From: Candidatus Thorarchaeota archaeon
GTDB lineage: Archaea; Asgardarchaeota; Thorarchaeia; Thorarchaeales; Thorarchaeaceae
Direction of reading: 5' to 3'
Assembly (NCBI GenBank): GCA_016840385.1
Contig: JAEOSL010000006.1
Span: 1-64,000 of the forward strand
DNA length: 64,000 bases
Part shown: piece after piece, positions 378 through 21,380 of the stretch
Layout of the letters: every line of letters starts with the position of its first letter
Position numbering within the stretch: position 1 is the stretch's first letter
Position numbers and translations under genes: made by a program
Notes under the pieces: model-generated
The model's input: only the letters and a program-made list of their open reading frames with translations
Told to the model about the DNA's origin: nothing
Databases searched by the model: none

Positions 378-501
378 AGCTCCTTTCTTCTCAGAGAAAA
401 GAGCTAATTATCTTCTATTTTAGCGGTACGTAAGCTGAAGACTTGGTAGCACCAATTCCGGGGTTGCCATGTTTCACGCGCCCCATAGGGCTAGAGCTTT
501 C
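378..501 (-). repeat. S19-tail repeat A: terminator hairpin plus displaced 3' end of rps19
   Basis: On the minus strand, 498 to 415 reads as the last codons of ribosomal protein S19 (SSSPMGRVKH, then GIGATKSSAYVPLK and TAG). It is followed by a hairpin made of AGCTC (378-382) and GAGCT (401-405). The stop codon of the flavodoxin gene (505-507) lies a few bases upstream of the tail. The tail has no S19 start and is not a gene. Several codons differ synonymously from the intact gene. Confidence 0.93.
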
Positions 502-504
502 TAA

Positions 505-1089
505 TTATCCAAAATCAATACTTTCAACCCATGAACGAATAGCATCCCAGTCTCTATAATCTCCTTCTTTTCCTATCTCTCCATCTCTATCTTTTATTCT
601 AATAATAAACAAATATAATTTCAAAATCATAGTGAGGAAAAAAGATAATTTGCTATAATCTAAAACACCCGCAATTTCCCCCATACTTACAGGTTTAACC
701 AGAGGAGCAATATCATATACTTTATCAGAATATCCTTTGACTTGTCGGGCTGTTTTCTCATTTTTTTGAGCCAATACCGCGCAAGTAAAAAAGAATGCCA
801 CAGGTATTTTACTTAATATTTCTTGGTTATTCTTAACAAATTTACTTGCATCGGACATCCACTTATCATATCTAATTGGGCTACCTATTACTATACGATC
901 ATAAGAAGTCAAATCAACCGTTTCTCTAACATGTTTAATTTCTACAATATTACCATTTTCGGATAATACATTCCCTATAAAATCAGCAATCTCTCCTGTA
1001 GATCCGGCCTCACTATCATAGGCAACTAAAACTTTATGACCATTTTTGATATCATTTTTGTTTTCGTGCATACTCACTCGATTTTTCAT
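505..1089 (-). CDS. Flavodoxin-domain protein (HemG-like)
   Basis: About 194 residues, probably slightly fewer since the first Met has an alternative at MHENKN. The N-terminal half is a flavodoxin fold: KVLVAYDSEAGSTGEIA forms the FMN phosphate-binding loop and RIVIGSPIRYDKW the second FMN loop, as in protoporphyrinogen-oxidase-type flavodoxins. A hydrophobic helix (FFLTMILKLYLFIIRI) lies near the C-terminus. The likely role is electron transfer or quinone/flavin redox chemistry; the substrate is unknown. It is the only gene between S19 tails A and B, ends a few bases from tail A, and has an AT-rich region with a TATA-like ATTTAAAG upstream, so it probably carries its own promoter. Confidence 0.8.
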   Translation of the reverse strand: MKNRVSMHENKNDIKNGHKVLVAYDSEAGSTGEIADFIGNVLSENGNIVEIKHVRETVDLTSYDRIVIGSPIRYDKWMSDASKFVKNNQEILSKIPVAFFFTCAVLAQKNEKTARQVKGYSDKVYDIAPLVKPVSMGEIAGVLDYSKLSFFLTMILKLYLFIIRIKDRDGEIGKEGDYRDWDAIRSWVESIDFG

Positions 1090-1160
1090 AAAATCGGCAC
1101 TTTAAATATATTACTTTTAACTTCTGAATTATCATTGAGGAATGACAAAATGAAAGAACA

Positions 1161-1276
1161 GCTCTTCTCTCCAAGAAGAAAAGAGCCAATCGCTTCTATT
1201 TCAGCGGTACGTAAGCTGAAGACTTGGTAGCTCCGATTCCGGGGTTACCATGTTTAACTCTCGCCATAGGCAAGCT
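1161..1276 (-). repeat. S19-tail repeat B
   Basis: Minus strand 1276 to 1196 encodes SLPMARVKHG through GIGATKSSAYVPLK and TAG. The hairpin arms are GCTCTTCTCT (1161-1170) and AAGAGC (1181-1186). The common left flank AAAATGAAAGA precedes the hairpin. The tail separates the flavodoxin module from the membrane-protein module. Confidence 0.93.
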
Positions 1277-1335: not shown

Positions 1336-1815
1336 ATGACAGATGACATTGTACCATATAATTCGATAATGAATTTTAGAATCATTTTTAGTATAATCAT
1401 AGTTTTCCTTGTTGTGCTCTTGGCTCCCTTTGCTTATTGCTTTGATGTAGGACCTGGTCCAGATTCTGTTGAAGCTATCATTTGGCACTATATCGAAGCT
1501 CCTTGGTATACTGGATTCCGATTCCAAAATCCCTTCAGATACTTTCCGTATATTTTTGTTAGAATGCTCTTTCTACTTCAGTTCCTAAGATACGTATTGG
1601 GAAAGACCTCGCAAAAGGCAACACTTCTAGTTGCAGCATATAGTGAACTGCATGTGGGACTGCTCTCTCTCCCTGTATTCATCTCTTGGTACTTTGGTCT
1701 TGGATTATTCTCAGCACCTGGTGGTGACCCTTTTCTACCAATCTTCCTTCCTCTTCCGATCTTATTCTTACTAGTTACTTTTGTGATATTCATTGATAGA
1801 CGCCGCTCGAACTAG
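1336..1815 (+). CDS. Small membrane protein of the DVGPGP family (cargo)
   Basis: 159 residues. It has a hydrophobic N-terminal segment (IIFSIIIVFLVVLLAPFAY), the motif DVGPGPDSVEAIIW, a mid-protein hydrophobic stretch, and a C-terminal helix (PIFLPLPILFLLVTFVIF). Function unknown. It is clearly homologous to the protein at 28842-29282, which shares DVGPGP, AIxW and PIxxPxPIL at equivalent positions. That second copy sits inside a duplicated etfA tail, so this family is cargo at two tail-duplication loci. It is the sole gene between S19 tails B and C. The start is supported by alignment with the paralogue rather than by a clear ribosome binding site. Confidence 0.8.
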   Translation: MTDDIVPYNSIMNFRIIFSIIIVFLVVLLAPFAYCFDVGPGPDSVEAIIWHYIEAPWYTGFRFQNPFRYFPYIFVRMLFLLQFLRYVLGKTSQKATLLVAAYSELHVGLLSLPVFISWYFGLGLFSAPGGDPFLPIFLPLPILFLLVTFVIFIDRRRSN

Positions 1816-1859: not shown

Positions 1860-1980
1860 ACCTTCTCTCTGAAAAGAAACGAGCCAATCGCTTCTATTTC
1901 AGCGGTACGTAAGCTGAAGACTTGGTAGCACCGATTCCGGGATTTCCGTGCTTAACTCTGGCCATAGGCGAGCTGAATTC
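1860..1980 (-). repeat. S19-tail repeat C
   Basis: Minus strand 1980 to 1894 encodes EFSSPMARVKHG through GIGATKSSAYVPLK and TAG. It keeps the E-F residues that precede this segment in intact S19, so it is the longest preserved tail. The hairpin is weaker here. Bases 1892-1976 are identical to 8809-8893 (repeat H). Confidence 0.94.
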
Positions 1981-2667: not shown

Positions 2668-3075
2668 TTATTCAGGTGTATTTGATGATCCTGGTATTAT
2701 TAAGAAAGAGTAACAAAGGTTGCAGGCAGCAAATGAGTTCCATCCCAACCAAGACAGGTTTTCGTTATACACAATTATTGCCCATAAGACAATCACCACA
2801 ACAATCAGAACTACAGCCAAGAGTGTTCTCCTAATGGGAGTACTTTCATATAGCGGACGCATTGCAGCTGACCATCCACCAATCTTCTTTCGATCATATA
2901 CCACGAACATACTCATTACGAGAAACATGATGTTGAAAGGAATCGTGAGTATTGGGTTTCCGAAATCTGAGAGGAGGTATGCGAGTGGCCAGACCATAAT
3001 CCAAAGTACTAAATTTGATAGTATGAAAATCCTATCTCTCATTTGTATAGCAGTAGATGTAGGAATACTTGCCAT
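2668..3075 (-). CDS. Small membrane protein, unknown function
   Basis: 135 residues with about three hydrophobic segments: ILSNLVLWIMVWPLAYLL, ILTIPFNIMFLVMSMFVVY and TLLAVVLIVVVIVLWAIIVY. A charged loop (DRKKIGGWSAAMRPLYEST) separates the second and third. No recognised family. It is minus-strand cargo between the LAGLIDADG relic and S19 tail D. A TATA-like stretch lies upstream of the start, so it may be transcribed on its own. Confidence 0.65.
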   Translation of the reverse strand: MASIPTSTAIQMRDRIFILSNLVLWIMVWPLAYLLSDFGNPILTIPFNIMFLVMSMFVVYDRKKIGGWSAAMRPLYESTPIRRTLLAVVLIVVVIVLWAIIVYNENLSWLGWNSFAACNLCYSFLIIPGSSNTPE

Positions 3076-3128: not shown

Positions 3129-3235
3129 GCTCTGGAAAAGAGCCAATCGTTCTATTTCAGTGGTACATAAGCTGAAGACTTGGTAGCTCCAATTCCTGGA
3201 TTTCCATGTTTCACGCGTCCCATCGGCGAGCTGAA
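3129..3235 (-). repeat. S19-tail repeat D
   Basis: Minus strand 3235 to 3152 encodes FSSPMGRVKHG through GIGATKSSAYVPLK and TAG. A short hairpin (GCTCT/AGAGC, 3129-3142) follows. The stop codon of the leucine-rich-repeat gene (TAG, 3236-3238) directly abuts the tail, which marks the cargo boundary to the base. Confidence 0.93.
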
Positions 3236-4630
3236 CTATTCCAGGATTTCACTCCATTTCTTGTCTGTATTCTCCACAATCCACCATATAGCATCCTTCA
3301 ATTCCTTACTCATATCTACACCAGACATTGGTGAATTTCCTATCTTTATTTCAAAACCCAACTCTTCAAAGCTATTCTTGATTTGTTCGAGTCCTTCGGT
3401 ATTTGTATTAAGCCGCATATTCAGAGCACTTAGAATTTTGTAACCATACGCAGTTAGCCAGAGTTCACGCAAGTCCACTTCATCATCATTTACACTAATT
3501 CTTACTCTCTCAATCTCTTTCTTCCTGAGTTCAAAGATACACTGAGCGTTTGCTGCTATTTCCCCATGAGTAGTGAGTAATTCTTCAATTCTAAGACCAG
3601 TGGTTGTACCATTTTTGTCCACATTTGTAATAACTTGTTCCACGAAGGTCTTTATGAGAATGCTCTGGATCTCTACAATGGGAGTTTCTGGTGCCATTGA
3701 GAGAAGGGTGTCAGTGAGATTACAATCAATGAATCCATAGTCTGTTAGTCCCAGTGCCGCACGAATGTCATACTGAACTCGGTAGTTGTTCTCATACAGT
3801 TCACTCACCTCATAAAGAAAATCCCAGGGATAGAAACATGTTGGATGGGAATAGAATAACTCCGTTAATCGGTTGGAGCGTGATCGAAGCCATGTGAATC
3901 CAACACCTCCTACATCGAGTTCAGTATTTCTGAATACAGGAGTCATATCAATACTCTCAAGGAGGTTATCTCACAGAAATAATTCCTTAAGACGAGTACA
4001 AGAACTGAGTGGTGTTAGGTCGATATTCCGGAGCTGATTTACATGTAGTCTGAGATCATTAAGATCAACACAGGAGCTGAGTGGTGTGAGGTCAATACTG
4101 TCGAGTTGGTTATTATACAGATAGAGTGTCTGAAGATTAGTGCAGGAACTGAGTGGGGAAAGATCAATGTTTTGCAACTGATTCGTAGATAGGTAGAGTT
4201 TATCGAGTGCAGTACAGGAACTGAGCGGCGTGAGGTCGATATTCGTAAGCTGGTTCTCTAACAATACAAGACCCTTAAGAGCAATACATGCATCGAGTGA
4301 ACTGAGATCGACATTTCCGAGCCGATTTCGACCCAACCAGATACGATGAATATGAGTACAGGAACTGAGTGGGGTAAGGTCGATATTCTGGAATTTGTTC
4401 AGAGAGAGACCGAGTTTCTGAAGATTAGTGCAGGTACTGAGCGGAGTGAGGTCAATATGTTTGAGCTCGTTTCCTCCCAGATTAAGGAATTGTAACTTAG
4501 TGCAGCAACTGAGTGGAGAAAGGTCAATCCTTTCGATGTGTTGCTCTGTAAGATCTATGATATCTACATCCTGCTTGAATTCTGCCTGTTTTTCTCCAAA
4601 TGAAGTTGTGAACTTTAGTTTGATACTCAT
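3236..4630 (-). pseudogene. Leucine-rich-repeat protein interrupted by one in-frame TGA
   Basis: Two open frames, 4630-3971 and 3946-3236, lie in the same frame and are separated only by TGA 3973-3971. Reading through gives a 464-residue protein: a short N-terminal region (MSIKLKFTTSFGEKQ), then about nine tandem leucine-rich repeats of about 22 residues (consensus LxLxxNxLxxIDLTPLSSCT), then a helical C-terminal domain (from about residue 240) ending KKWSEILE. The TGA falls at a variable position of the last repeat, and the sequence after it (DNLLESIDMTP) continues the repeat pattern. This is most likely a nonsense mutation or sequencing error; recoding is possible but unsupported. Such repeats usually bind proteins. 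It is cargo between tails D and E. Confidence 0.8.
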
Positions 4631-4650
4631 TCCCCTTGCTCCATAGCCTC

Positions 4651-4686
4651 TTGTTATAGAACGGAACACTAAGATAAGTTTTGATT
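4651..4686 (+). repeat. Short dispersed repeat, copy 2 (partner at 308-343)
   Basis: TTATAGAACGGAACACTAAG and the following bases match 308-343. The repeat overlaps the region just upstream of the leucine-rich-repeat start on the other strand and leads straight into the LAGLIDADG-tail relic at 4688. Confidence 0.45.
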
Positions 4687-4687
4687 A

Positions 4688-4779: not shown

Positions 4780-4898
4780 AGCTCTTCTCTAGTAAGAAAA
4801 GAGCTAATCGTCTTCTATTTCAGCGGTACATAGGCTGAAGATTTGGTAGCACCGATTCCTGGATTTCCATGTTTTACGCGTCCCATCGGCGAGCTGAA
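4780..4898 (-). repeat. S19-tail repeat E
   Basis: Minus strand 4898 to 4815 encodes FSSPMGRVKHG through GIGATKSSAYVPLK and TAG. It is preceded by its own in-frame TAG (4901-4899). The hairpin AGCTCTTCTCT / AAGAAAAGAGCT spans 4780-4805. The cargo gene at 4906-5346 stops a few bases away. Confidence 0.93.
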
Positions 4899-4905: not shown

Positions 4906-5346
4906 TTAGGGAATATCGAAAGATTTAGCACAATTATTGCATGTTGCTGTTCCTTCCACTATATCTGTATCTTTGTAGACGTATCGTGCTTTACAATGAG
5001 GGCAAGTTAATGCACCTGACCACATTATCAAATTCTTCAAGTCTCTAAGTAATTCGTTGAATCGACCTCTTGGTTCCGGAATAATTCTAAGTCTTACTTG
5101 CTCCTTTTCAGGTATTATCGAGAGACACAGAAATATTAGACCAAACGTTTCTACAGATTTGTTAAGGGGAGAAGGTACATGTCCTGGTCCTGCAACATAA
5201 TGATCTTCAAAAAAATATTCGAAAGAGCCATCATCACCCAATGTTCGCTTAGGATATCCTGTTAGATGTTTATCGATATATTGTGTTATTCTATTGAGAT
5301 GTTTCAAATCAAATTCTTCTTCAATCATTTCACTCCAATCCTCCAC
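4906..5346 (-). CDS. Unknown protein with C-terminal zinc ribbon
   Basis: 146 residues and soluble. The N-terminal two-thirds (MEDWSEMIEEEFDLKHLNRI to about residue 110) match no family I know. The last 35 residues form a zinc ribbon with CPHC and CNNC pairs (LTCPHCKARYVYKD ... TATCNNCAKSFDIP). Such ribbons mediate nucleic-acid or protein contacts. It is the only gene between S19 tails E and F, on the same strand as the tails. Confidence 0.7.
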   Translation of the reverse strand: MEDWSEMIEEEFDLKHLNRITQYIDKHLTGYPKRTLGDDGSFEYFFEDHYVAGPGHVPSPLNKSVETFGLIFLCLSIIPEKEQVRLRIIPEPRGRFNELLRDLKNLIMWSGALTCPHCKARYVYKDTDIVEGTATCNNCAKSFDIP

Positions 5347-5418: not shown

Positions 5419-5534
5419 GCTCTCCTCTTCCTTGAGAAAAGAGCCAATCGCTTTTATTTCAGTGGAACATAAGCTGAGGACTTGGTAGCACCGATTCCGG
5501 GGTTTCCATGCTTCACTCTTCCCATTGGTGAGCT
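5419..5534 (-). repeat. S19-tail repeat F
   Basis: Minus strand 5534 to 5454 encodes SSPMGRVKHG through GIGATKSSAYVPLK and TAA. Hairpin GCTCTCCTCTTC / GAGAAAAGAGC spans 5419-5444. This tail uses TAA where the others use TAG, and GTT/CCA codons in VP, so it is among the more divergent at synonymous sites. Confidence 0.93.
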
Positions 5535-5617: not shown

Positions 5618-5905
5618 CTACTGAAACTGTCTAGCTCCAGTATATGGTGCAACGATGCCATATTTCATGTGGAGTATCAATGGTCCTTTGGAGAAGTCTA
5701 CAACCAGAATATCGGAAGCATTGAACATCAACGCTTTATCATCACTCTCATGGACGACAAAGTTCCCGTAAGATTCATTATATCTATCAATCTTGGAAAT
5801 CTCACCAAGTACAGTATCTGTTGACATGAGTTGTAGACCTTTCTCTTCTGATTTGGCTTTCTTCAGCACAGACTTCAAATACTCCCAGTGTTCGAATTTT
5901 ACCAT
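5618..5905 (-). CDS. Small unknown protein (95 residues)
   Basis: The protein is soluble. It has a helical start (FEHWEYLKSVLKKAKSEEKG) followed by beta-rich sequence (TVLGEISKIDRYNESYGNFVV, LMFNASDILVVDF, ILHMKYGIVAPY). I do not recognise the family; the C-terminal part could be a small beta barrel. It lies between S19 tails F and G, on the same strand as the tails, with a LAGLIDADG-tail relic divergent to it. Confidence 0.55.
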   Translation of the reverse strand: MVKFEHWEYLKSVLKKAKSEEKGLQLMSTDTVLGEISKIDRYNESYGNFVVHESDDKALMFNASDILVVDFSKGPLILHMKYGIVAPYTGARQFQ

Positions 5906-6258: not shown

Positions 6259-6363
6259 AGCTCTTCTCTTGCAAAAGAAAAGAGAGCTTCGTATCTATTT
6301 CAGTGGTACATAAGCTGAGGACTTGGTAGCTCCGATAACTGGATTTCCATGTTTAACTCTTCT
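6259..6363 (-). repeat. S19-tail repeat G (truncated)
   Basis: Minus strand 6363 to 6295 encodes RRVKHGNPVIGATKSSAYVPLK and TAG. The usual SSPM codons upstream are gone and one residue differs (G to V before IGATK). Hairpin AGCTCTTCTCTT / AAGAAAAGAGAGCT spans 6259-6288. Confidence 0.9.
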
Positions 6364-6451: not shown

Positions 6452-7156
6452 TTATGGGATACTGCTAAAGAATGTAATTTGGTTAGAACAAAAGAATAGT
6501 GCCGACGAGGTTGAACTACTAATCAAGCTGAATCGATCAGCTGGAGCTGTAGATACAACTACGAGACTAATCTTCAACTCATATGTCACTCCAGCTGAAA
6601 CTGGAATGAATGTAGTGACACATCCTACATGTAAATAGGTGTAGGTATATGATTGATAATCAGAAGCTACTTGATATCTACTGTAGTCATAGGGGTCGAC
6701 TAATGAACAGGGAGATGTAATATACCCTCCAATTGGATCTGTCAGACCAAGACAACCAAATGCAACATGATGGTAATAATCAGTATACCAATTAAATTGG
6801 TAGTTGAGTCTAACTTGAATATAGCCACTCGAAGATGGTGTGTAGTCCTTTGTTAGATGCGCATCAAGTCTTCCGTATTGACCTGGTGTAGTTTTGCGGA
6901 CATTGATAAAACCTGTCCTATAGGCTGATGCAGTAAATTCGGGATCAGCATACATTGTTGCAGAGTCCCAGTAATATGTTGCTCCTCCTCCATCGGTACC
7001 TGCACCAAGCATCATAGGAAATGTTCCCGCAAATGCAATTGCTACAAAGAATCCAATGAGGAATAAAGCCTTTACCTTAGTTTCTCTATTTTTACCTAGT
7101 TTCAATTTGAAACTCATCCTCCAAATTGATACAAATGCAAACCACCTTAAAAACAC
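6452..7156 (-). CDS. Secreted or membrane-anchored unknown protein
   Basis: Up to 234 residues. The start is uncertain: GTG at 7156 has no ribosome binding site, while ATG 7117 (MSFKLKLGKN) gives a better signal peptide (KALFLIGFFVAIAFAGTFPMML) but has GGAGG directly adjacent. The exported part is rich in Tyr, Ser, Thr and Gly (ATYYWDSATMYADPEF, YQFNWYTDYYHHVAFGC) and looks like a beta-sandwich. No known family. It is downstream of the membrane protein at 7202-8656 on the same strand, with an AT-rich gap that could be a promoter. Confidence 0.6.
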   Translation of the reverse strand: MFLRWFAFVSIWRMSFKLKLGKNRETKVKALFLIGFFVAIAFAGTFPMMLGAGTDGGGATYYWDSATMYADPEFTASAYRTGFINVRKTTPGQYGRLDAHLTKDYTPSSSGYIQVRLNYQFNWYTDYYHHVAFGCLGLTDPIGGYITSPCSLVDPYDYSRYQVASDYQSYTYTYLHVGCVTTFIPVSAGVTYELKISLVVVSTAPADRFSLISSSTSSALFFCSNQITFFSSIP

Positions 7157-7201: not shown

Positions 7202-8656
7202 CTAAATCATTCTCCTGATAGACCGGGTCACCTCAAAGACTACAACCGCCATGATTGGAGCCCAAAATACACCGTCGAAGATACCCGCTGCACCAATAAA
7301 GACTTGATTTGCAATTGGTTGAAATGGAGGAAAAGATGTGATGAGATCTGCAATTAAGATTGATATAACAGCGACACAATACAAAGAGATGATTCGAATA
7401 GAATTGGATTTGAATGAGCTAGAATTTGAAATATTCCAAGCATGTGCCGCTTCAACTTTTATCTCAAGTAGTATTGCAGCTAAAACAAATGAGAGCATGA
7501 ATGGAATAACAAAATGCCCTCTTATTGCTGAAGTCTGCCATCCGCCAGTAGAATATGAGAAACTTGAAGCAATAATAAGGCCTAGACTGATGATTGAACC
7601 AAGTACAAGCAAATATCCACTAGGATAGATAGTAGTATTTTCATGGTTAATCCTTTGATATAAAACGAAGAGCATACTAGCTATCAGACATATTAGCGGA
7701 ATCCCTACTGAAAAGTAGTTGATGTAAATCATTGTACTCATAACTGTTCCAATGTATAATGATTGCGAAACAAGAAAGTCCGTCCAGCTTGCATCAATCT
7801 CGGGCTGAAAGAATGTGATGAAATAGAATAAAATTGCAATCAGTGTTGAAGTGCCAAGTAAGGAGAGAGAAGGAGTTTTCATCACTACTCTTTCTGTTTT
7901 GTCAGTAATTATTTGCATAGATTCAATTGTGCTCTGGTGTGTACCAAATTTAATGACTGAAAGACTGAATGCCATTGAAACAATGAGTCCGATGAATTTA
8001 ACGCTGAATGGATCAAGGAGTGAACCCATAACCGCTCGTGGAACAAGAAATTGCATGAAAAAAGAAAGTGACAATAGGAGATAATATTTTGACAATGAAA
8101 CAGAACTCCTATTACTTTCTGGATCATCTATGCTTTCTTCAAGTGAAATAAAGGCATGATATATCAGAACTGATCCAACGAAAATACCTAGAAAAAGAAA
8201 CATGAGTTCCCCAACTATTGGCATCATAATGGTAACAGCTCCATTATCCCAAAATACCATGTAATCTGTAGAATATATTATTGAAATAGAAGATATGATT
8301 ACTTGAACAACTAACAATATGACGCCGTTTCGATTCATTTTGTAAGATTCGTTCCAAACAATGACTGATAGAAAAAGAAGAATGAAAGCATATGATATGA
8401 CCATGATTAATGGCCAGAATGATTCGTAGTTACCAATATCTCTTTGATACAAGTCCATCTGTAAGTACAATGACAAAGTGGCAAGATGAGAGAGTAAGTT
8501 ACAGATGATAATGCCAAAACAAGCTCCACTTCTAATTATTGAAATAGTATCTTTTGAACGAAGTAACTTCACAATTGCAAATAGAAGAATTGCCATTAGA
8601 ACTGAAATAGCTAATCCATTTATCATAATCCCCGCAAACCAAACCCCCAACTGCAT
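7202..8656 (-). CDS. Polytopic membrane protein, unknown function
   Basis: 484 residues with roughly twelve hydrophobic segments, e.g. GLAISVLMAILLFAIVKLL, GVILLVVQVIISSISIIYS, LMFLFLGIFVGSVLIYHAF and VFIGAAGIFDGVFWAPIMAVVVFEV. A charged central loop (SLEESIDDPESNRSSVSLSK) divides it. No transporter signature is visible and I do not assign substrate or family. It is the larger cargo gene between S19 tails G and H and is followed by the exported protein at 6452-7156, which could be a functional partner. Confidence 0.7.
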   Translation of the reverse strand: MQLGVWFAGIMINGLAISVLMAILLFAIVKLLRSKDTISIIRSGACFGIIICNLLSHLATLSLYLQMDLYQRDIGNYESFWPLIMVISYAFILLFLSVIVWNESYKMNRNGVILLVVQVIISSISIIYSTDYMVFWDNGAVTIMMPIVGELMFLFLGIFVGSVLIYHAFISLEESIDDPESNRSSVSLSKYYLLLSLSFFMQFLVPRAVMGSLLDPFSVKFIGLIVSMAFSLSVIKFGTHQSTIESMQIITDKTERVVMKTPSLSLLGTSTLIAILFYFITFFQPEIDASWTDFLVSQSLYIGTVMSTMIYINYFSVGIPLICLIASMLFVLYQRINHENTTIYPSGYLLVLGSIISLGLIIASSFSYSTGGWQTSAIRGHFVIPFMLSFVLAAILLEIKVEAAHAWNISNSSSFKSNSIRIISLYCVAVISILIADLITSFPPFQPIANQVFIGAAGIFDGVFWAPIMAVVVFEVTRSIRRMI

Positions 8657-8774: not shown

Positions 8775-8891
8775 GCTCTTTCCTCGAAAAGGAAAAGAGC
8801 CAATCGTTTTCTATTTCAGCGGTACGTAAGCTGAAGACTTGGTAGCACCGATTCCGGGATTTCCGTGCTTAACTCTGGCCATAGGCGAGCT
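8775..8891 (-). repeat. S19-tail repeat H
   Basis: Minus strand 8891 to 8811 encodes SSPMARVKHG through GIGATKSSAYVPLK and TAG. A clean hairpin GCTCTTTCC / GGAAAAGAGC spans 8775-8800. The 85 bases 8809-8893 are identical to repeat C (1892-1976) although the two lie 7 kb apart. Confidence 0.94.
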
Positions 8892-12120: not shown

Positions 12121-12903
12121 ATGATATCATACAATAGAAATTCGGTTCAATCTCCAGATTGGCTTGTTGATAAAAGAAACAAAAAACAAAATGATTCAAT
12201 GTTATTGCAATTTCATCAAGACACCAAGAAGAGATGGAAAGAAACCGGGAAAAAAAATACTGATTGGCCATCGAAAATTAAGGACCAATGGAAAGATTGT
12301 AGGGATAAACTGATAGAAATCTTCCATGGAAAGTGTGCTTATTGTGATACTAGGAGAATGGGACACGGTAATGTTGAACATTTTCGACCAAAGGATTTGA
12401 GAAAGTATTGGTGGCTTTCATTGACATGGGAGAACTTGTTATTCTCTTGTGAACGGTGTAATCAAAGCCACAAAAGAAGAGAATTTCCATTAGGACCGGG
12501 TAGTATGAGAGCCGATGAACCACTTAATAATCACCATTTTGAAAATAACATCATAATCAATCCACTTGATGAAGATCCTGAAGCTCTTATAGCTTACAGG
12601 AATGATGGGGATCAGGAAAATCTAGTTGCAGAACCCTCACTTACGTCACCAAAACGTGTTAGAGTGACAACGCATATAGAATTGCTTAAACTAAATGAAG
12701 ATAGTCAGGTGAATCTGGCAAGGAGAGAAATAAGAAATGTCTTCAATATTTGTCTATCAATATACAGGAATCCAAAGTCATCAGCCAGTGACAGAAAGGA
12801 TTCTGAAATACAGTTACGATACATGGCATCTGATGATGGAGAGTGCGCAGGAATGATTCGCTATCTTCTGAGGAAACATGGATATCCGAAGCTAATTGCC
12901 TAA
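12121..12903 (+). CDS. ptuB: Septu-like HNH nuclease (PtuB type)
   Basis: 260 residues. The HNH core carries two zinc-binding pairs and the catalytic motif: CAYC (about residue 73), NVEHFRPK (about 84-91, catalytic His), YWWLSLTWENLLFSCERCN (about 95-114) and EFPLG. This arrangement is characteristic of PtuB and related retron-associated HNH proteins. It is probably activated by the ATPase encoded just upstream to cleave invading or cellular nucleic acid. The two genes form an operon with a 15-base gap. No promoter of its own is visible. Confidence 0.86.
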   Translation: MISYNRNSVQSPDWLVDKRNKKQNDSMLLQFHQDTKKRWKETGKKNTDWPSKIKDQWKDCRDKLIEIFHGKCAYCDTRRMGHGNVEHFRPKDLRKYWWLSLTWENLLFSCERCNQSHKRREFPLGPGSMRADEPLNNHHFENNIIINPLDEDPEALIAYRNDGDQENLVAEPSLTSPKRVRVTTHIELLKLNEDSQVNLARREIRNVFNICLSIYRNPKSSASDRKDSEIQLRYMASDDGECAGMIRYLLRKHGYPKLIA

Positions 12904-13208: not shown

Positions 13209-13743
13209 ACGGAAATCAAAGGATTAAAGGAACAATACGATGAGTCCGTGAGCGATCCCTGACACCATCTCTCAATGTTGGATGGTGCCTTTTTAACTCG
13301 TCAATAAACTCACTTTGAATTTCGGGGTGCAAATTATCTTCGAAAAGCGAGAGAGTAATTCTTTTTCCATTCAAGAAAAGAATTCATCACTAATTATTCG
13401 AATACGACATATGCTGAAGACTTGTAGCATTGATTCCGAGGTTGTCATGGATAACTTTGGTTATGAGGTTAGAAAATTCTTATCCGGAAAATGGAACACA
13501 AAACTATCACTTTCCTGCAAAGTACGACCTTGATACATTGCAGAAGTCCACCATGAGGTGTGTTGACGAGAAAAAATAGCACCATAATCTTGCTTTAGCT
13601 ACTCAGAAGCACCTTATCTCTCTATATAGTAGTACAATAGTTCATGGTGAACTTCTATCAATTAGAAAATACCTATCATAGTTCTAAGCTTGTTATTTGA
13701 TAATGAAATTCACAAGAGAGTGAATTAGAAACAAGAAATACAA
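13209..13743. other. Non-coding stretch holding the decayed S19 tail
   Basis: No convincing gene. It contains S19-tail repeat J (13357-13464) and, to its right, about 280 AT-rich bases before the HerA-type ATPase. A 72-codon open frame at 13315-13533 runs through the repeat and is explained by it. Confidence 0.6.
13357..13464 (-). repeat. S19-tail repeat J (decayed)
   Basis: Bases about 13390-13463 align with the other tails, sharing ATGCTGAAGACTTG-TAGC, TTGATTCCGAGG and CTTTGG-TAT. They have a one-base deletion and many substitutions, so S19 codons are no longer readable. The flanking hairpin survives (AATTCTTTT / AAAAGAATT, 13357-13384). It is the most degraded of the ten copies although it bounds the module nearest the intact gene. 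Confidence 0.8.
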
Positions 13744-16700
13744 ATGGTGTTAACTTTGCTAGGTACAATCCTGAAACCACTAATGAAACTGGCTGTGATG
13801 GGTAGTATAGTTGCTATCTGTACACTCTTTCTATCAAATATCATTACTCTTCCTCTTCACTATATTCCCTCATCGACGCCACATATTGTGAAGCAAGTAG
13901 GTGCCGCCATTTCCATCATATTTCTTGGAGCTGGTTTTGCAGCACTGATCTTTGCAAAAGAATGGCGAGTCATGAAATATACTGGACCCTTGGGGATTCT
14001 AGCACCCACTTTGATCTTTCTCATCAGCTATCTCATCGCAATTCCTCAGATTCTGTTTACACTAAGCCCTCTACAGATCGTTGTAGTTATTATATTGATT
14101 ATCAGTGGTATTCTAGTTCTAACAGATATTTTCACTGGAAAGATCAGTGGTACTCCATGGTTGAAGAGATTCACTATCCCGCAATCATCTTCATCCCTCA
14201 AAACTGGAACATCTGCTGCAGTTTCTGTGTCAACTACAACTATTGAGTCATTTGGTGCCTTTGAGATAGTAGAGATGCCTGAGGAATATATCTTTGACAC
14301 TCAGAATTCAAATCCTAGATTCTGGGAACCTTTCAAGAACATGCTCAGAGCTATGATGGCATCTGGAGCTCCTTTTGGATTCCGATTTGAAAGAATCTGG
14401 GGTAAGACAAGATTGTACTACCTTACCCTCGGAAGGTCTGCTGAGAATCTCCGAATGAACATGGATCTTCTTCAACGACTCCTAGGTAGTATGCTTCCCA
14501 AGTTCCGATTTGAGCGCAGAGATCGAATGCCCTCAGTTCAGTATAGTGATGGTGTTGTTGGAACTCTGACTGGAGAACTTGTGTCAATTGAGAATACACG
14601 TCAACGACCCGATCCAATGACTGTGATAGCTGAGTCGCTACTCCAGATGGAGAATGGTATCTTTCAGGTCTATGCAACACCAGTCTCACCGGGAGTCATG
14701 AGATCATTCAAGCGCATGATGGCTAATCGTGAGTACAGGTCTACCATGCAGAAGGCACAACACACGGTATCAACAAAGCGAGGTGGCCTATTCTCTGGTG
14801 GTGGAGAAACCTCAGCAACGGTGATTGATATCGATACTACAACTGAGGCTGATAGACTATTCCGAAAACACCAGAGACATAGCATTGAGCATGCATGCAA
14901 TGCAGAGATCAGTATTGCGTGTTGGGGAAAGAACATAGAACAGTCCGAGAGAGATGCACGACTGATTCTTGAGGTGACAAAGAGTACAGTTGTACCTGAT
15001 GACCCGACGAATGATCTGAAGGTGCGTATATACAAGAAGCCTGAGCTTGTACAGCATATTACCACTGGAAGACCCATCGGTCGAACTACACTCTTGACCC
15101 CTGAAGAGTTTGCTATGTTCTTCACTTTACCTAAGTCGGATGTGAGTGTAGTTCTCAGCAAACGGGAGGTCTTCTCTACTGCGACCAGACCAGTTCCCGA
15201 ACCAGTTGAATCAGTAGTTATTCCAGTGACAGAAGAGCAAGCCGAGAGGCGATTAGTATACTCAGAGTGGCGTATTCCCAATCACAAAGCAATCATTCTT
15301 GGTAACCCCATCAGTGCTAGCGGTTGTGGGGTTGCGGGTCAGTTTGTCTGGTTTGATATTCAGAAACTAGAGTCACATCTCGCCATCTATGGGAATACCA
15401 GATCGGGAAAGACGACCACAGCTCTCTCAGTTGTTGCACAGGCAATTCGTTCAGGTCTGAACGTATTGATTCTTGTTCCCATGCGGATTTCGGACTGGAT
15501 TACACTGATGTACCTATTTCCAGACAAGTTCTGGGTATTCAAGATTGGAGGTGACTCTGCGCTCTCAATGCATCTGAACATGTTTCAACCTCCTCCTGGA
15601 GTACAGGTTGCAGAGTGGATTACTGCTCTGGGTGATCTCCTCTCCAGCTGGATGCCAAACGACCGAGTGATGAGGATGCATCTGGATGATGTCCTTCACA
15701 CTGCATATAGAAACTGTGGCTGGGATGTAGAAACGAACAAGATGGGTCGCCCTATCTTGTTGAGTGACTTCTGGGATGCTGTCGAAGAGGTCTGTCTGAA
15801 CATCCCTTATGGTAACGAGATGAAACAGAACTTCTTTGGTGCTATTTACAGTCGGATCTCGAACATGATACGTAACAAGATTCTTGTTGATACTTACAAC
15901 ACGGATGAGGGAATCACATGGGAACAAGTTGCGAATAATAACATCCTGATCAGTACAGAAGGTGTGGCCTCTGATGAGGATAGCTCCTTCATAATGGGAC
16001 TCCTCTCTATTGGCCTTCATATGTACAAGCGAGTTCACCAGACCAAGAAGGTAACGAACCTTCTGGTTATTGAGGAGGCTAGTTATGTTCTGACAAATCC
16101 CGATGGTCCAGATCACTATGGTCACAATTCAAGTCATTTCACTGTGAATCGTATCGTCGAGATATTGACCACTGGTGGAGGTAATGGACTTGGAGTCATG
16201 ATCCTAGAGCAGTTTCCAAGTAGACTACATCCTGCTGTTGTCAAGCTAATAGTGAACACCATTGTCCATGCCATGGGCGAGAAAGTTGAACGACTGCTTA
16301 TTGGTGGTCATATTGGAATAGATGAGAAACGGACCGAGCACATCCATCAACTGGGTAAGGGTGAAACCATCGTCTTCCTTGAGGGTGAGGGTGCTGCACG
16401 CAGTGTAAAGATACTCCCCCTGAACTTGTACCTTGACTTTCCACTACCAGAGCGGAAAATCAAGGATGAAGAGATTATCAAGCATATGGAACCTATCTAT
16501 GAGAAGTATCCTGGATTAGGGAAGTGTGTTGAAATTCCCAAGGAGATTCGGGATAGAATTGCACGTGCAAAGCCTTCTGACCAGATCAAACCCACAGGAG
16601 TTGGTCCTGCTCCCATTGAGACCAATGGTATCAAAGTGACAGAGCGTAAGAACATCCATGAGTTTCTGGACAACCACATTCGTGACCTTGCTCAAAATCC

Positions 16701-16929
16701 AAAGTACGTGAATAATCTCGTGAAACGAATCGAACCGTTGAAGGATGGTGACTTTGAGCCAATGGTGACTATGGTCATTGATGTTGTGGATGAGTTCCAG
16801 TACAAGGGTGTCAAACAATTCTGGATTGCTGAACGTCTTGTGAAGCACACGCATAACCTGTACCCGAATCTATTGAGCGAGCACCTGATGGTCTCCACAC
16901 TTGAGCGGCTTCAGGAGCAGCTCGGATAG
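13744..16929 (+). CDS. HerA/VirB4-type membrane DNA-pump ATPase
   Basis: 1061 residues. Four N-terminal membrane segments (about residues 12-135, e.g. GSIVAICTLFLSNIITL, PTLIFLISYLIAIPQIL) are followed by a mixed domain and a HerA/DUF87 motor with Walker A GNTRSGKTTT (about 550) and Walker B LLVIEEASYVL (about 772). A late RTEHIHQLGKGETIVFLEG segment is typical of this family. Such membrane-anchored ATPases move DNA or unfold protein during conjugation or virion/plasmid transfer. It is the first gene of a three-gene operon ending at the intact rps19. The stop codon overlaps a possible ATA start of the next gene. Confidence 0.88.
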   Translation: MVLTLLGTILKPLMKLAVMGSIVAICTLFLSNIITLPLHYIPSSTPHIVKQVGAAISIIFLGAGFAALIFAKEWRVMKYTGPLGILAPTLIFLISYLIAIPQILFTLSPLQIVVVIILIISGILVLTDIFTGKISGTPWLKRFTIPQSSSSLKTGTSAAVSVSTTTIESFGAFEIVEMPEEYIFDTQNSNPRFWEPFKNMLRAMMASGAPFGFRFERIWGKTRLYYLTLGRSAENLRMNMDLLQRLLGSMLPKFRFERRDRMPSVQYSDGVVGTLTGELVSIENTRQRPDPMTVIAESLLQMENGIFQVYATPVSPGVMRSFKRMMANREYRSTMQKAQHTVSTKRGGLFSGGGETSATVIDIDTTTEADRLFRKHQRHSIEHACNAEISIACWGKNIEQSERDARLILEVTKSTVVPDDPTNDLKVRIYKKPELVQHITTGRPIGRTTLLTPEEFAMFFTLPKSDVSVVLSKREVFSTATRPVPEPVESVVIPVTEEQAERRLVYSEWRIPNHKAIILGNPISASGCGVAGQFVWFDIQKLESHLAIYGNTRSGKTTTALSVVAQAIRSGLNVLILVPMRISDWITLMYLFPDKFWVFKIGGDSALSMHLNMFQPPPGVQVAEWITALGDLLSSWMPNDRVMRMHLDDVLHTAYRNCGWDVETNKMGRPILLSDFWDAVEEVCLNIPYGNEMKQNFFGAIYSRISNMIRNKILVDTYNTDEGITWEQVANNNILISTEGVASDEDSSFIMGLLSIGLHMYKRVHQTKKVTNLLVIEEASYVLTNPDGPDHYGHNSSHFTVNRIVEILTTGGGNGLGVMILEQFPSRLHPAVVKLIVNTIVHAMGEKVERLLIGGHIGIDEKRTEHIHQLGKGETIVFLEGEGAARSVKILPLNLYLDFPLPERKIKDEEIIKHMEPIYEKYPGLGKCVEIPKEIRDRIARAKPSDQIKPTGVGPAPIETNGIKVTERKNIHEFLDNHIRDLAQNPKYVNNLVKRIEPLKDGDFEPMVTMVIDVVDEFQYKGVKQFWIAERLVKHTHNLYPNLLSEHLMVSTLERLQEQLG

Positions 16930-17180: not shown

Positions 17181-20021
17181 GTGAGTGTAGAGGATAATGA
17201 TATACAACCTCCCAAGAGCGAAGGAACTCAAATGACACTGGAAGCATATGTGTCTGTGAAAGATAGTATTGAGGATAAAGGCGAAACCTCAGAAGAATTA
17301 GAACGAACCGATCAAGTAGAATCAGAAGATTTTGAGAAAAAGAATGACCAATCATCAGAGAAATCCCTTGAGGTAACGGAACAAGAAAACGGACCCAGAG
17401 TGATTGTGTCAGAATCAGAAATTACTCAGAAAGAAACTGACAAGCCCTCCGAGAAAACCTCTGATGCACCAGAACAAGTGAAAGATGTCAGAGAAACTGT
17501 CTCAGAAGAAGTCCTCGAAGAGCTCGGTAATCGCGAGGTCAAGATGTACAGTCCTGAGGTTCAGGGGAGGGAGGTATCATCAACTGAGGAATTGGAGGAA
17601 GTAGTCGAACAAGAAATGCCTGGAATGAAGGAGCATCGTAACTATGAGAAGATGCTGGGGCAGTGTGAGAATCACTTCAAGGCGGAGGAACGGTTCGGGC
17701 ACAGGAAGTGGGTTTCAAGTGGAGAGATTATCAGATTCTCTGAAGAGGTTAATGAACCCGAAAAGACAGTTCGTGCCTGGGTAGTTGAGAGCGCTAGTCC
17801 ATTGATGTATCCCACTCTTGAGAGTGCTATGACGAAGGAAGAGGTTGAGGAGAAGATTCGTGAGGTTCAAAACAATCTGCAGGGAGTTGATTCTTTTGAG
17901 GAGTTGGAGAATCGACTGAACCATCCATATCATGAAACTCATACCAAGGCTCAGGTGAGTTACCCGAAGGACCTTGAGTCTGCTAGAAAGTATTACGAGT
18001 TTCTGGATGAGATAGCAAAGGGTGGGACCATAGCTGATGTGTCGAAGAGAGTTGGAATTAGTCAAGGTAGTGGATCACGGTATCTCGAAGGCAGAATTAC
18101 TCGCCTCACCCATAAGGCAATTGAAACTATCCCGGAATTAGAAACAGTGGAAGTGAAAGAAACTTTTCACATTGATACACCTGAGAAATACGAACGTGCT
18201 TTGCAACGTCATCCCTTTGTCAAGGACCTACCAGATTTCAAGCAGTTGGACCATGAGGCAAGAGTGTATACAACACTCACGGATTTGAAGGCAAGAGGAG
18301 ACCTCCCTGATAAGATGGTGAAGGACCTTGCAAGAGAGAACAAAGTTGGGAAGCAGCAGTTGGCATCATGGCTGAGTGAGCGGAAGACGCAGGAGCTCAT
18401 CGCACGTCTTGAGATTTATGAAAATGCCAGAGAGTCCCATGAAGCGAAGCTTGCAACGGAAGCATTCGAACATCGAATCGACCCGTCAACAGTGTACGAG
18501 CATTTCCAACACTTGAAGGATGTGAAAGAACCAGATCCCAATCAGCTCGCTCAGGCTATTGAGAGTATGTATCAAAACTCTAAGTTATCAACCCGTGTAC
18601 AATGGAGTGAGCTCAGACCATACCATAGTGGGGGTCCTAAGTGGCTTAGGGATGTAGCACAGTCGATTCATGAGCAGCGTGTAGAAGTTGAGACTGTCCT
18701 GAATCAACGAATGGGGCTTGAAGGAAATCCTGATGTAAGATTACGCATCGGAGTTTTGGATAGCAAACTGTACATCCGTAGAGCTGACACCTCCGAGTGG
18801 AACTGGATGAACATCTACAAGAATGAGCAGTTCCATTTCAACAGCCTTGAAGAGAAGAACTCACTCACAGTTGAGGTGCAGACTAGGTTGGGAGTAAGTG
18901 GTCCGAAAAGATTGAGTGATATAGTAGATCAGATAACTGACTACAAAAGAGGTAGTACTTGTGGTATTCCTAACTACGATCTACAATCAAACACGCCGTA
19001 TCTCAAGGGCGAAACGCTTCATCTCTCTTTAGATACAACTGGTAAGAGCATTCGGGATATGCAGAGTAGTATTGAGCAGATTGGGCAAGTAAGAGAAGGT
19101 GTTGGGGGAATAAAAAATCCTCAATTTAGAATGAATGAAACTGAGATAGAGTCCATGTTCACGTCACTTCTTGGTACTGGGTTATCGGATGGACACATTG
19201 AGTTATCAAGCAGCGGATTTGTGTATACAGAATCAAATCGTGACCGGGTGGATATTGTCAATAAGCAGATAGACCAGTTTGGGGACGTCTATCGCAGTGA
19301 GGACATTCGACCAAATGGAGTAATCCGAACTCGGTACGCTTCCGCGTATGGTAGGGCATTGGAGCGACGTGGGTTAACAAAGGGTGATAAGACCCTGCAG
19401 AACGAGGGATGGCCTCAATGGTTGGATGAATCGACGGGAATAGAGAATCTGGAATACTATCGATCACTTTGGGTTCAAGATGGTAATTTCAAATTTGACA
19501 TAAATGGTAGGGCCGCATTCCAAGTAGACCGGGGTGTTGTTTTACGGGATCCTAAAAGAGCTCTGGAATATGGCATTGAAAATACGGCATCTGAGAAGAT
19601 GGCTGAATTTGTTCGAGATAAAGGAAACCGATCTGAAGATGAACTATTCAAAGTTCGATACAAGCTAACGAAAGGTACACTTGATGACCTAACGTATTCA
19701 ACGGATGCAGAAGTTTCTCAAATAGCTAGGGAATTGAAAACAATCGTAAATGATAATCCCCCCAAGTTGATGGTTGCTGAACAAAACGGTCTGAGACAAC
19801 ATGGAATCGAAACAAGGGAATATTTTGCTTATGTTACTTATTCAGAAAATACTGGTAGGTTATCTGGTCTCTGGCATTATGAAACAAGTACACTGAAGGA
19901 TACGATGCGTGTTGCGCTTAAATGTCCTCCAGATGATATACGTAAGAGATCTAAAGTTGAGAGATGGGTTGAGAGTAGACCTGATTTGAAAGAGAAAATT
20001 GAACTTGAGGAGGAAAATTAA
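17181..20021 (+). CDS. LAGLIDADG-type homing-endonuclease-like protein with HTH domains; candidate mobility protein
   Basis: 946 residues from the first canonical start, GTG 17181. The frame is open and coding-like back to 16905: ATA 16926-16928, overlapping the HerA stop, has GGAG (16914-16917) at ideal spacing and would add 85 Glu/Lys-rich residues. An acidic N-terminus (about 1-200) precedes HTH-like segments (TIADVSKRVGISQGSGSRYL at about 285; LARENKVGKQQLASWLSER at about 400). A LAGLIDADG-like segment lies at about 660 (FTSLLGTGLSDGHIELS). The last 35 residues (KCPPDDIRKRSKVERWVES) recur as relics beside S19 tails D, E and G. LAGLIDADG proteins cut long specific DNA sites. The gene overlaps its follower by one base. 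I infer, without proof, that it drives insertion at the rps19 end. Confidence 0.72.
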   Translation: MSVEDNDIQPPKSEGTQMTLEAYVSVKDSIEDKGETSEELERTDQVESEDFEKKNDQSSEKSLEVTEQENGPRVIVSESEITQKETDKPSEKTSDAPEQVKDVRETVSEEVLEELGNREVKMYSPEVQGREVSSTEELEEVVEQEMPGMKEHRNYEKMLGQCENHFKAEERFGHRKWVSSGEIIRFSEEVNEPEKTVRAWVVESASPLMYPTLESAMTKEEVEEKIREVQNNLQGVDSFEELENRLNHPYHETHTKAQVSYPKDLESARKYYEFLDEIAKGGTIADVSKRVGISQGSGSRYLEGRITRLTHKAIETIPELETVEVKETFHIDTPEKYERALQRHPFVKDLPDFKQLDHEARVYTTLTDLKARGDLPDKMVKDLARENKVGKQQLASWLSERKTQELIARLEIYENARESHEAKLATEAFEHRIDPSTVYEHFQHLKDVKEPDPNQLAQAIESMYQNSKLSTRVQWSELRPYHSGGPKWLRDVAQSIHEQRVEVETVLNQRMGLEGNPDVRLRIGVLDSKLYIRRADTSEWNWMNIYKNEQFHFNSLEEKNSLTVEVQTRLGVSGPKRLSDIVDQITDYKRGSTCGIPNYDLQSNTPYLKGETLHLSLDTTGKSIRDMQSSIEQIGQVREGVGGIKNPQFRMNETEIESMFTSLLGTGLSDGHIELSSSGFVYTESNRDRVDIVNKQIDQFGDVYRSEDIRPNGVIRTRYASAYGRALERRGLTKGDKTLQNEGWPQWLDESTGIENLEYYRSLWVQDGNFKFDINGRAAFQVDRGVVLRDPKRALEYGIENTASEKMAEFVRDKGNRSEDELFKVRYKLTKGTLDDLTYSTDAEVSQIARELKTIVNDNPPKLMVAEQNGLRQHGIETREYFAYVTYSENTGRLSGLWHYETSTLKDTMRVALKCPPDDIRKRSKVERWVESRPDLKEKIELEEEN

Positions 20022-20944
20022 TGACATGTGACTTAACTCTACTCAAAAAAATAATGATGGATACGATAAGTGATGAAACTGGAGTTGCAGGTGTCCCTAT
20101 CATAGTTGTTGAACGAAGAATGCAAGATAGTATTGAGGTCGCTGGTCTGCAATGTGGATTGTCCCAAATACGTGAAATCATTCAACGAGCTCTTGATGAT
20201 TGGGAGATTGACAAGACACCGGATGAACTAGCCTATTCAAAGATGAGAGAACTTGGGATGCCAGTACGTAGTGGATTTACGTGGCATCTCAAAATTCTTC
20301 CCCCTGAGAAGATTGCTTTATACAAATCTCTTCGCCCTGAAGTGAAAGCGCTGATTCAGCTTTTGAGAGAGCAGAATGATCCAGACAATTTGGGAGTGCT
20401 GCCTGTTGACCTTGCTGCAAAGAGATTGGTTGAGCAAGGATTTTCTGAGGATGATACCAAGAGTATCTATGCAAAAGATATCATTGAGGATTTTGGGACT
20501 AGCTGGGGCGACAACCGAGTTTGGTGCTATGGATTAATGCCAGAGTATAAGAAGAGTGAGGAATACAAACAATGGCAAAAGGAGATAGAGGATGAGTTCG
20601 ACAGAAAACAAGCTAGGCGAGAGCGCATGGTTGAAGAATGTGAGATAACCGGGCCTATTCATGGATACCTCGATGATCTAGCTGAAAAGCGGGAAGTTGA
20701 TTTGATGGAGTTATTGATGAATGAAGATAAGATGGATGAACAGGAGTTTCTACTCAAGAAGGCAGTCATCGAATCAAGGGATGAGGAAGCGGAGAAGAAA
20801 TGGAACGAGATTATCAAGTCTGTGTTCTCTCTCAACTTTTCTGACCTTATTGAACTCAGAGGGCTTTTTCTCGGGAAACCCTTTCCATCACTTGATACGG
20901 TTCAAGAAAAACTTAAAAAATCGAAAGAGAAAAAGGGCGCATAA
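20021..20944 (+). CDS. Unknown protein, third gene of the HerA/LAGLIDADG operon
   Basis: 307 residues, soluble, mostly helical and highly charged. It starts in the stop codon of the previous gene (TAATG overlap), with GAGGAGG just upstream, so the two are translationally coupled. The N-terminus (TISDETGVAGVPIIVVERRM) and the middle (WGDNRVWCYGLMPEYKKSEE) match no family I know. The C-terminal half is likely coiled coil (EEYKQWQKEIEDEFDRKQAR). It ends inside the terminator hairpin that also serves rps19 from the other side. It is probably part of the mobile module. Confidence 0.7.
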   Translation: MTCDLTLLKKIMMDTISDETGVAGVPIIVVERRMQDSIEVAGLQCGLSQIREIIQRALDDWEIDKTPDELAYSKMRELGMPVRSGFTWHLKILPPEKIALYKSLRPEVKALIQLLREQNDPDNLGVLPVDLAAKRLVEQGFSEDDTKSIYAKDIIEDFGTSWGDNRVWCYGLMPEYKKSEEYKQWQKEIEDEFDRKQARRERMVEECEITGPIHGYLDDLAEKREVDLMELLMNEDKMDEQEFLLKKAVIESRDEEAEKKWNEIIKSVFSLNFSDLIELRGLFLGKPFPSLDTVQEKLKKSKEKKGA

Positions 20945-20956
20945 CGCTCCTTTTTC
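20930..20956. terminator. Shared bidirectional terminator between the mobile operon and rps19
   Basis: AAAAAGGGCG, loop CATAA, then CGCTCCTTTTT form an imperfect hairpin with A/T runs on both sides, suiting both converging transcripts. Its sequence is unrelated to the AGCTCTT/AAGAGCT hairpins next to the displaced tails. Confidence 0.7.
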
Positions 20957-20969
20957 CAAATACGGGCTT

Positions 20970-21380
20970 TTACTTCAGCGGAACGTACGCAGAAGACTTG
21001 GTAGCACCGATACCCGGATTTCCGTGCTTAACACGCGCCATCGGGCTCGAAAATTCGCCAAGCACATGCCCAATCATCTGCGGGATGATTTTGACGCGAT
21101 TGAACTTGTTACCGTTGTGAACGGCGATGGTGAGGTCAACCATTTCAGGGAGAACGACCATGTCACGGCAGTGGGTTCTCACAACGACCTCTTTACCCTT
21201 CTTTATAGACTTCCTGGCAGCTCTGAGTTTCATCAGGAGTTTCTTCTGGCGTGGAGGGAGTCCTCTCTTGAGAGTCCTTCTCCTGCGTGTGGGGAGCAGT
21301 TCGATGAGCGAGTCCATGTTCAATTTGACTAGCTCTGATAGGGGGTAACCGCGGTACATTGGTTCTGCTTTCTGTGACAT
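20970..21380 (-). CDS. rps19: Ribosomal protein S19 (uS19), intact
   Basis: 136 residues from ATG 21380, which has AGGTGA at proper spacing. A longer frame to 21425 lacks a ribosome binding site. It is a small-subunit protein of the head that contacts 16S rRNA. Typical archaeal features are the basic TRRRRTLKRGLPPRQKKLL, THCRDMVVLPEMVDLTIAVH, IIPQMIGHVLGEF and C-terminal GIGATKSSAYVPLK. It stands apart from the usual L2-S19-L22 ribosomal cluster; the only same-strand neighbour is a TPR gene. Its 3' end is the template for ten displaced tails to the left, and differs from nearly all of them by synonymous changes (e.g. CCG for CCC, TCT for TCA, GTT for GTA, TAA for TAG). Confidence 0.97.
   Translation of the reverse strand: MSQKAEPMYRGYPLSELVKLNMDSLIELLPTRRRRTLKRGLPPRQKKLLMKLRAARKSIKKGKEVVVRTHCRDMVVLPEMVDLTIAVHNGNKFNRVKIIPQMIGHVLGEFSSPMARVKHGNPGIGATKSSAYVPLK

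Follow-up and report, generated by a model that had tools for sequence, protein, structure and literature searches.

A 64-kb window (the whole stretch of DNA analysed, 64,000 nucleotides of contig JAEOSL010000006.1 from a Candidatus Thorarchaeota archaeon) harbored an intact rps19 gene (21425–20970, minus strand), and to its left lay ten copies of the rps19 3′ end, nine of them readable and one decayed, all on the minus strand like the gene itself. This arrangement had been described in a first-pass annotation made by a model from the sequence, and it was recovered with an nhmmer nucleotide profile. Each copy (hereafter tail) consisted of the last ~27 rps19 codons plus part of the 3′ untranslated region (UTR). 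The window S19 protein was 96% identical over 139 amino acids (aa) to that of Thorarchaeota isolate AMARA_8. Single genes or small groups sat between the tails, and a three-gene module adjoined rps19: a HerA/FtsK-like ATPase (weak match), F13 (946 aa), and F19 (307 aa). Genomes, loci, and protein families compared here carry the prefixes G, L, and F, respectively. From the gene outward, the features were as follows (ORF, open reading frame; cargo, genes between tails):

20970–21425, minus strand: rps19, working gene (Pfam Ribosomal_S19, 1.1e-28); resident tail at 20967–21044
20021–20944, plus strand: F19, 307-aa partner ORF of F13, convergent with rps19 (no Pfam match)
17181–20021, plus strand: F13, 946-aa predicted LAGLIDADG homing endonuclease with helix-turn-helix-rich N-terminal half (motifs, model, structure matches)
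13744–16929, plus strand: HerA/FtsK-like ATPase with hydrophobic N-terminal stretches (weak: DUF87 E 7e-4 and FtsK E 6e-3, both below cut-off; PADLOC mad8 E 2e-12)
13407–13456, minus strand: decayed displaced rps19 tail (nhmmer E 1.7e-5)
12121–12903, plus strand: cargo, PtuB-like HNH protein of Septu (PADLOC PtuB E 4e-37)
10765–12105, plus strand: cargo, PtuA-like ATPase of Septu (PADLOC PtuA E 3e-78)
10594–10671, minus strand: displaced rps19 tail, hairpin inside 10555–10608 (nhmmer, codons, folding)
9087–10526, plus strand: cargo, PAS-PAS-histidine kinase (Pfam search)
8809–8885, minus strand: displaced rps19 tail (nhmmer, codons, folding)
7202–8656, minus strand: cargo, 484-aa ORF of membrane-like composition (no Pfam match)
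6452–7156, minus strand: cargo, 234-aa ORF (no Pfam match)
6293–6362, minus strand: displaced rps19 tail, shorter on its 5′ side (nhmmer, codons)
5618–5905, minus strand: cargo, 95-aa ORF (no Pfam match)
5451–5527, minus strand: displaced rps19 tail (nhmmer, codons, folding)
4906–5346, minus strand: cargo, zinc-ribbon protein (matches below cut-off only)
4812–4889, minus strand: displaced rps19 tail (nhmmer, codons, folding)
3971–4669, minus strand: cargo, leucine-rich-repeat protein (LRR_4, 6.5e-20), with a 236-aa ORF (3236–3946) behind it
3150–3226, minus strand: displaced rps19 tail (nhmmer, codons)
2668–3075, minus strand: cargo, 135-aa ORF (no Pfam match)
1891–1968, minus strand: displaced rps19 tail (nhmmer, codons, folding; another hairpin best)
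1336–1815, plus strand: cargo, 159-aa ORF of family F30, kin of cassette genes in L080 and L081 (family comparison)
1193–1270, minus strand: displaced rps19 tail (nhmmer, codons, folding)
505–1089, minus strand: cargo, flavodoxin (Flavodoxin_5, 1.4e-26)
412–489, minus strand: displaced rps19 tail, hairpin extending down to 378 (nhmmer, codons, folding)

The nine readable tails matched the profile at E 2e-25 to 7.5e-21 across the window, values flattered by the training of the profile on ten copies; the decayed tail was not in the profile and still matched at E 1.7e-5. Beyond the resident end and the ten displaced tails, the 64-kb window gave no further profile match at E ≤ 10. All 20 last codons (VKHGNPGIGATKSSAYVPLK plus stop) were kept in eight of the nine readable tails, the ninth had one change, and the decayed tail retained 7/20. 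The terminator hairpin claimed to accompany the tails was found after the stop codon in six of the seven readable tails folded (–13 to –20 kcal/mol, z –1.5 to –3.2 vs. shuffles for these seven of the nine); at 1858–1904, a different hairpin scored best.

The cargo kinds named in the first-pass annotation were upheld: flavodoxin, leucine-rich-repeat protein, PAS-histidine kinase, and PtuA/PtuB Septu pair all stood, alongside ORFs without family, and the DNA pump corresponded to a HerA/FtsK-like ATPase matched weakly, below Pfam cut-offs. No recombinase, integrase, or transposase family was found above cut-off in the 46 array and edge proteins scanned, some array ORFs lying outside the scan; a zinc ribbon named for IS1595 matched the 4906–5346 product below cut-off.

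Replaced rps19 ends in the window and its relatives

When the nine readable window tails were compared in pairs, 0, 8, and 245 differences fell at codon positions 1, 2, and 3, respectively (synonymous differences per site, pS, 0.425; nonsynonymous, pN, 0.005). Neither a site conserved as DNA nor drift after duplication would yield such a pattern, which therefore indicates that the readable tails diverged while serving as working gene ends. Tails with fewer than 12/20 matching codons were dropped from this statistic (3/48, the window's decayed tail among them). The argument takes the window value and not the pooled one, since the 45 placed tails of the pool (pN/pS 0.17) took in loci that overlap (L015/L083) and some ends in current use (L090 and L092).

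The sequence comparison was extended to the working genes. Across 20 pairs, pS of the rps19 body vs. that of the last 20 codons rose from 0.17 to 0.60 in G003–G004, from 0.20 to 0.76 in G003–G005, and from 0.24 to 0.65 in G019–G020, while other pairs displayed no such jump (G004–G005, 0.21/0.23; window–G001, 0.33/0.31); judged from these values, the rps19 end has been replaced between close relatives. Relatives had been proposed as the place to look for empty rps19 sites and other tail numbers, and both were found. In L012, rps19 ran without tails straight into F37, the gene that stood past the last tail in L008 (and, in L082, past the last tail plus an 84-aa ORF), and the last L008 tail was similar by eye to the L012 rps19 end. 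Displaced tails were detected in 12 of the 28 genomes searched (E ≤ 0.1), numbering seven in G003 and eight in G015, and in 11 of the 47 genomes of the class (E ≤ 0.01); the latter count set aside G018, which carried two whole rps19 genes, and G042 yielded just a 30-aa frame.

One displaced tail of G003 bore the 3′ UTR type of the current working ends in the window, G001, G003, G004, and G005. The working ends of G005 and G008, with no F13 beside them, likewise bore this type by eye, as if F13 had once been present and then gone. F19 adjoined rps19 also in L001, L003, L004, L016, and L023. The earlier claim of repeated insertion at the rps19 3′ end, with a replacement end supplied each time, is supported by the codon pattern, the G003–G004 pS jump, the L012/L008 junction, and the UTR type of the G003 tail. 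Cassette families F17, F35, and F30 recurred across arrays, and the order of F17 and F35 was reversed between L081 and L082.

In G018 (CP070658.1; L018 and L021), the two full rps19 genes lay ~55 kb apart in opposite orientation, with families F50, F51, and F0 upstream of both. In L080 (G003), tails 7430 and 7519 (in gene orientation) directly adjoined each other with no cargo in between, the 3′ UTR of the first running into the start of the second.

F13 and its occurrence at other gene ends

F13 contained two LAGLIDADG helices, each closing on an acidic residue (D670, invariant; D767, in at least 90%; 25 sequences). Its structural model (pLDDT, predicted local distance difference test, 83) placed these helices at 653–665 and 754–766, displayed the characteristic LAGLIDADG fold, and matched homing endonucleases (Foldseek and VIA-align). 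F13 is accordingly named here a predicted LAGLIDADG homing endonuclease, in both fold and activity. A Pfam search of F13 at E up to 10 returned helix-turn-helix-type matches alone, a sequence search of PDB returned nothing relevant, and one scan of viral contigs with the F13 profile gave 11 pattern matches, none of them confirmed. Relatives were found in 33 of the 47 genomes of the class and 37 of the 227 of the phylum, often several per genome.

The sufS site was occupied in G003 and empty in G004 and G001. In G003, F13 started within 6 bp after sufS, and a second sufS end lay 140 bp past F13; G004 sufS ran unbroken into its flank, and the displaced G003 end plus flank aligned to G004 over 438 bp at 92%. 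From roughly the codon that follows SG, the working sufS end of G003 was foreign (AHCVHPFHHQLGIPVER vs. WHCVGPFHYQMGIDPKK in G004, G001, G014, and G011), and both insert junctions shared the nine bases TCCATTTCA. F13 was the sole long ORF in the scpB insert and also in the sufS insert, of which it is therefore the candidate mover. In L142 (G005), sufS had a foreign patch, native last codons, and no F13, and this allele is probably the healed scar of an element loss, judging by its sequence.

A displaced end past F13 was likewise seen at scpB in G001, argF in G009, and Lsm in G003 (two tails), and also at an HDAC-like gene in G047 and G048, where F13 ran in the gene's own direction. Displaced tails occurred in 4 of 6 genes ending ≤150 bp from the F13 3′ end vs. 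13 of 439 other genes there (Fisher 2.1e-5), the HDAC-like cases being two of these 13. The count of six took genes with at least 1.5 kb readable past F13, leaving out eight further abutting genes at contig ends; the control left out the seven rps19 loci, and F13 matches short of the endonuclease half (profile position <600) were set aside before counting. When gaps of up to 1.3 kb from F13 were allowed, 5 of 28 genes had a displaced tail, and none of 35 same-strand genes upstream of F13 had one; part of the F13 family is thus not, or not visibly, at gene ends. Several such copies were directly preceded by an ORF of 850–1,065 aa, comparable to the HerA-like gene in the window (852–1,065 aa and same direction in L130, L231, L234, L247, L250, L252, L261, and L265); no target tail was found at loci of this kind, and the long ORF plus F13 is possibly a two-gene element with another way of life.

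Further neighbors of F13 included (i) ahcY, abutted by F13 in G003, G021, and G010, where contigs stopped within 240 bases past F13 and synonymous sites were saturated, and (ii) the cluster rpl3-rpl4-rpl23-rpl2-FtsZ-Lsm, with F13 between rpl23 and rpl2 in L126 (G005), L127 (G016), and L128 (G008), a 907-aa ORF before F13 in L128, and rps19 outside that cluster in the loci seen. The rpl23 side was visible in L127, and no displaced rpl23 tail was found behind F13 at this sole locus where rpl23 was examined. In G024, an M24 peptidase gene (L249:4301–6165) had its C-terminal end repeated ~0.8 kb downstream (56% over 39 aa), and an F13 relative stood 1.9 kb past that second end; this gene is perhaps a further target whose element is now without F13.

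In a tree of 32 hand-picked F13 rows labelled by neighboring gene, the Lsm, rpl2, and ahcY enzymes each formed one group (bootstrap 100), and four rows from G003 landed in different target groups. The labels needed 11 changes (minimum possible, 10; shuffles, 22.4), two of them for the rps19 enzymes. These groupings indicate that F13 enzymes cluster by target gene; the Lsm group may be explained by vertical descent, since its three rows came from closely related genomes.

Proposed mechanism and rival explanations

The rps19 array is probably a record of repeated insertions of homing-endonuclease elements that replaced the gene end and pushed the old end outward, some of them with cargo. F13 would cut a conserved coding stretch near the 3′ end of a gene, each F13 clade having its own target. 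The break would then be repaired from an element-carrying cell, a conjectural route by which the gene would gain the element and a foreign working end, as observed at sufS; the old end would stay past the element as a displaced tail, again as observed at sufS, and scpB, argF, Lsm, and the HDAC-like gene have this layout too. Being coded differently, the new end would escape cutting and so shield its carrier. At rps19, this process would have been repeated many times, F13 often being lost, and cassettes without F13 would have entered or stayed, perhaps moved in trans or via tail–tail recombination. Cutting, homing, protection by the new coding, and movement of cargo cassettes are inferred.

Two observations qualify this reading: the tail nearest rps19 (13407–13456) was the most decayed, contrary to a simple rule that the newest tail stands nearest the gene, and F13 was found at rps19 in only 4 of the 12 tail-bearing genomes (G003, G004, G010, and G016). 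The module or its partner is also found at rps19 in G001, G003, G004, and G016, so this innermost arrangement may be old, and the entry of subsequent cassettes may have been at displaced tails.

If a site-specific integrase of the tyrosine or serine type, encoded by elements now lost or located elsewhere, had used the gene end as its attachment site for serial insertions, the same geometry of a replaced end and a displaced old one would result, and the nine bases shared by both sufS junctions could be its short core; this is unlikely, however, given the recombinase-free protein scan (within its coverage), the presence of F13 as the only long ORF in the sufS and scpB inserts, and the differing starts of the displaced tails among sufS, argF, scpB, Lsm, and rps19, which showed no common core by eye. 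An integron was considered and rejected: no integrase match lay beside rps19 in the window (F19, F13, and HerA-like gene only), and the tails were coding ends. If the tails were instead homology arms between which cassettes, F13 among them, were swapped by ordinary homologous recombination, the sharing of F17, F35, and F30 by several arrays, the opposite F17/F35 orders, and the two back-to-back G003 tails would fit, but the abutment of F13 to other genes with displaced ends, its grouping by target gene, and the replaced working end would be left unexplained, and we consider this reading a shade more doubtful still; tail–tail homologous recombination may well act on top of the homing-endonuclease insertions.

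Tandem duplication of the rps19 end within one genome, followed by drift, agrees with the shared orientation of the copies and their position on one side of the gene, yet it is very improbable: drifting non-coding copies would not give the observed 0/8/245 pattern, close relatives differ by a replacement of the working end itself, and a distal tail continued into the flank seen at an empty site. Least credible is an assembly artefact, in spite of the short-read metagenome origin of the assemblies and the many contigs ending near rps19: displaced tails occurred in 12 of 28 separate assemblies with differing cassettes between them, and they are thus no such artefact.

Known systems and cassette content

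Staphylococcal cassette chromosomes (SCC), Staphylococcus aureus pathogenicity islands (SaPI), and tRNA-end genomic islands insert at a gene 3′ end, restore that end, accrete in tandem, and encode a site-specific recombinase. The rps19 array is like them in 3′-end insertion with a restored end and in tandem accretion, but their recombinase had no match among the 46 array proteins scanned; the likeness to such integrase islands drawn in the first-pass annotation is not supported, the sufS insert carrying instead one predicted homing-endonuclease gene.

The mORF elements of Glomus sp. mitochondrial atp6, atp9, cox2, and nad3 and Allomyces atp6 consist of a carboxy-terminal end of foreign origin joined to the gene, an ORF for an endonuclease, and, downstream, the native end, which is nearer to that of relatives than the end in use; three of the four Glomus genes have an endonuclease of LAGLIDADG type, and both transcription and endonuclease-driven movement were put to the test in that system (PMC3630166). 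All three features, foreign fused end, endonuclease ORF, and displaced native end, were found at sufS, and scpB, argF, Lsm, and the HDAC-like gene shared the layout. Compared to the mORFs, the Thorarchaeota elements, known from sequence, reside at archaeal chromosomal genes, encode an enzyme of 570–1,470 aa with a helix-turn-helix-rich N-terminal half, have partner genes, and can line up as many as ten displaced ends together with cargo. In simple mORFs, each insertion would carry the endonuclease, whereas cassettes without F13 occurred in the window and in relatives, and the rps19 array as a whole is therefore not classed as simple mORFs.

HeimM2 of Heimdallarchaeum, an Asgard mobile element between the 16S rRNA and tRNA-Arg genes, likewise pairs a homing-endonuclease-like gene with a leucine-rich-repeat gene and occupies a fixed site by a conserved gene, but the consulted part of its description mentions no replaced or displaced protein-gene ends (PMC8813620). 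Free-standing homing endonucleases beside essential phage genes, and homing-endonuclease-gene (HEG) islands, are proposed to mobilise neighboring DNA; the likeness lies in endonuclease genes near essential genes, and the difference in the displaced duplicate of the target gene end, which the portion of that source at hand does not describe (PMC10448857). Synthetic home-and-rescue and Cleave-and-Rescue drives aim a nuclease at an essential gene and supply a differently coded working replacement (PMC7968924 and PMC7951863); both properties are predicted here, but for a natural system, in contrast to engineered CRISPR (clustered regularly interspaced short palindromic repeats) systems in animals. 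By this analogy, the elements are likely a natural counterpart of engineered gene drives. A wider proposal strikes us as possible though short of probable: Thorarchaeota would host a natural cleave-and-rescue family, each member with its own core-gene end and uncuttable recoded replacement, the old end being expelled, and at rps19 successive invaders would have overwritten one another, the expelled ends having turned into entry points for cassettes, so that an island without integrase would gather defence genes and others. Searches of an open-licence library, judged at the level of listings, gave no treatment of rps19-end arrays or the F13 enzyme in Thorarchaeota.

If the homing-endonuclease reading is true, gene-end replacement as described in fungal mitochondria also acts on core chromosomal genes of archaea, and its targets in the archaea closest to eukaryotes include a ribosomal protein, cysteine desulfurase, ScpB, ornithine carbamoyltransferase, and an Sm-like protein. 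It would then offer (i) a natural model for rescue-type gene drives, succession and loss included (the G005 sufS allele resembling a healed scar), (ii) a route to genomic islands without integrase, and (iii) a caution for phylogeny, as the ends of marker genes such as rps19 could stem from another lineage than their bodies; every displaced tail would be a dated fossil of a former gene end.

Cassette genes of the arrays gave further observations. The window ORF 28752–29282, near electron-transfer flavoprotein-like genes, resembled by eye the F30 cassette gene at 1336–1815, and L022 had an F30 member at the equivalent chromosomal place; after this resemblance, cargo may have been captured from the host chromosome. 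Cassettes between tails in L080:5422–12243 (G003) held likely defence genes, one for an Mrr-like nuclease (PADLOC PDC-S02, E 3.5e-140) and one for an HD-CE/ATPase protein. Beside the rps19 tail array of G016, L082:2271–4640 encoded a 790-aa protein with a cytidine-deaminase domain.

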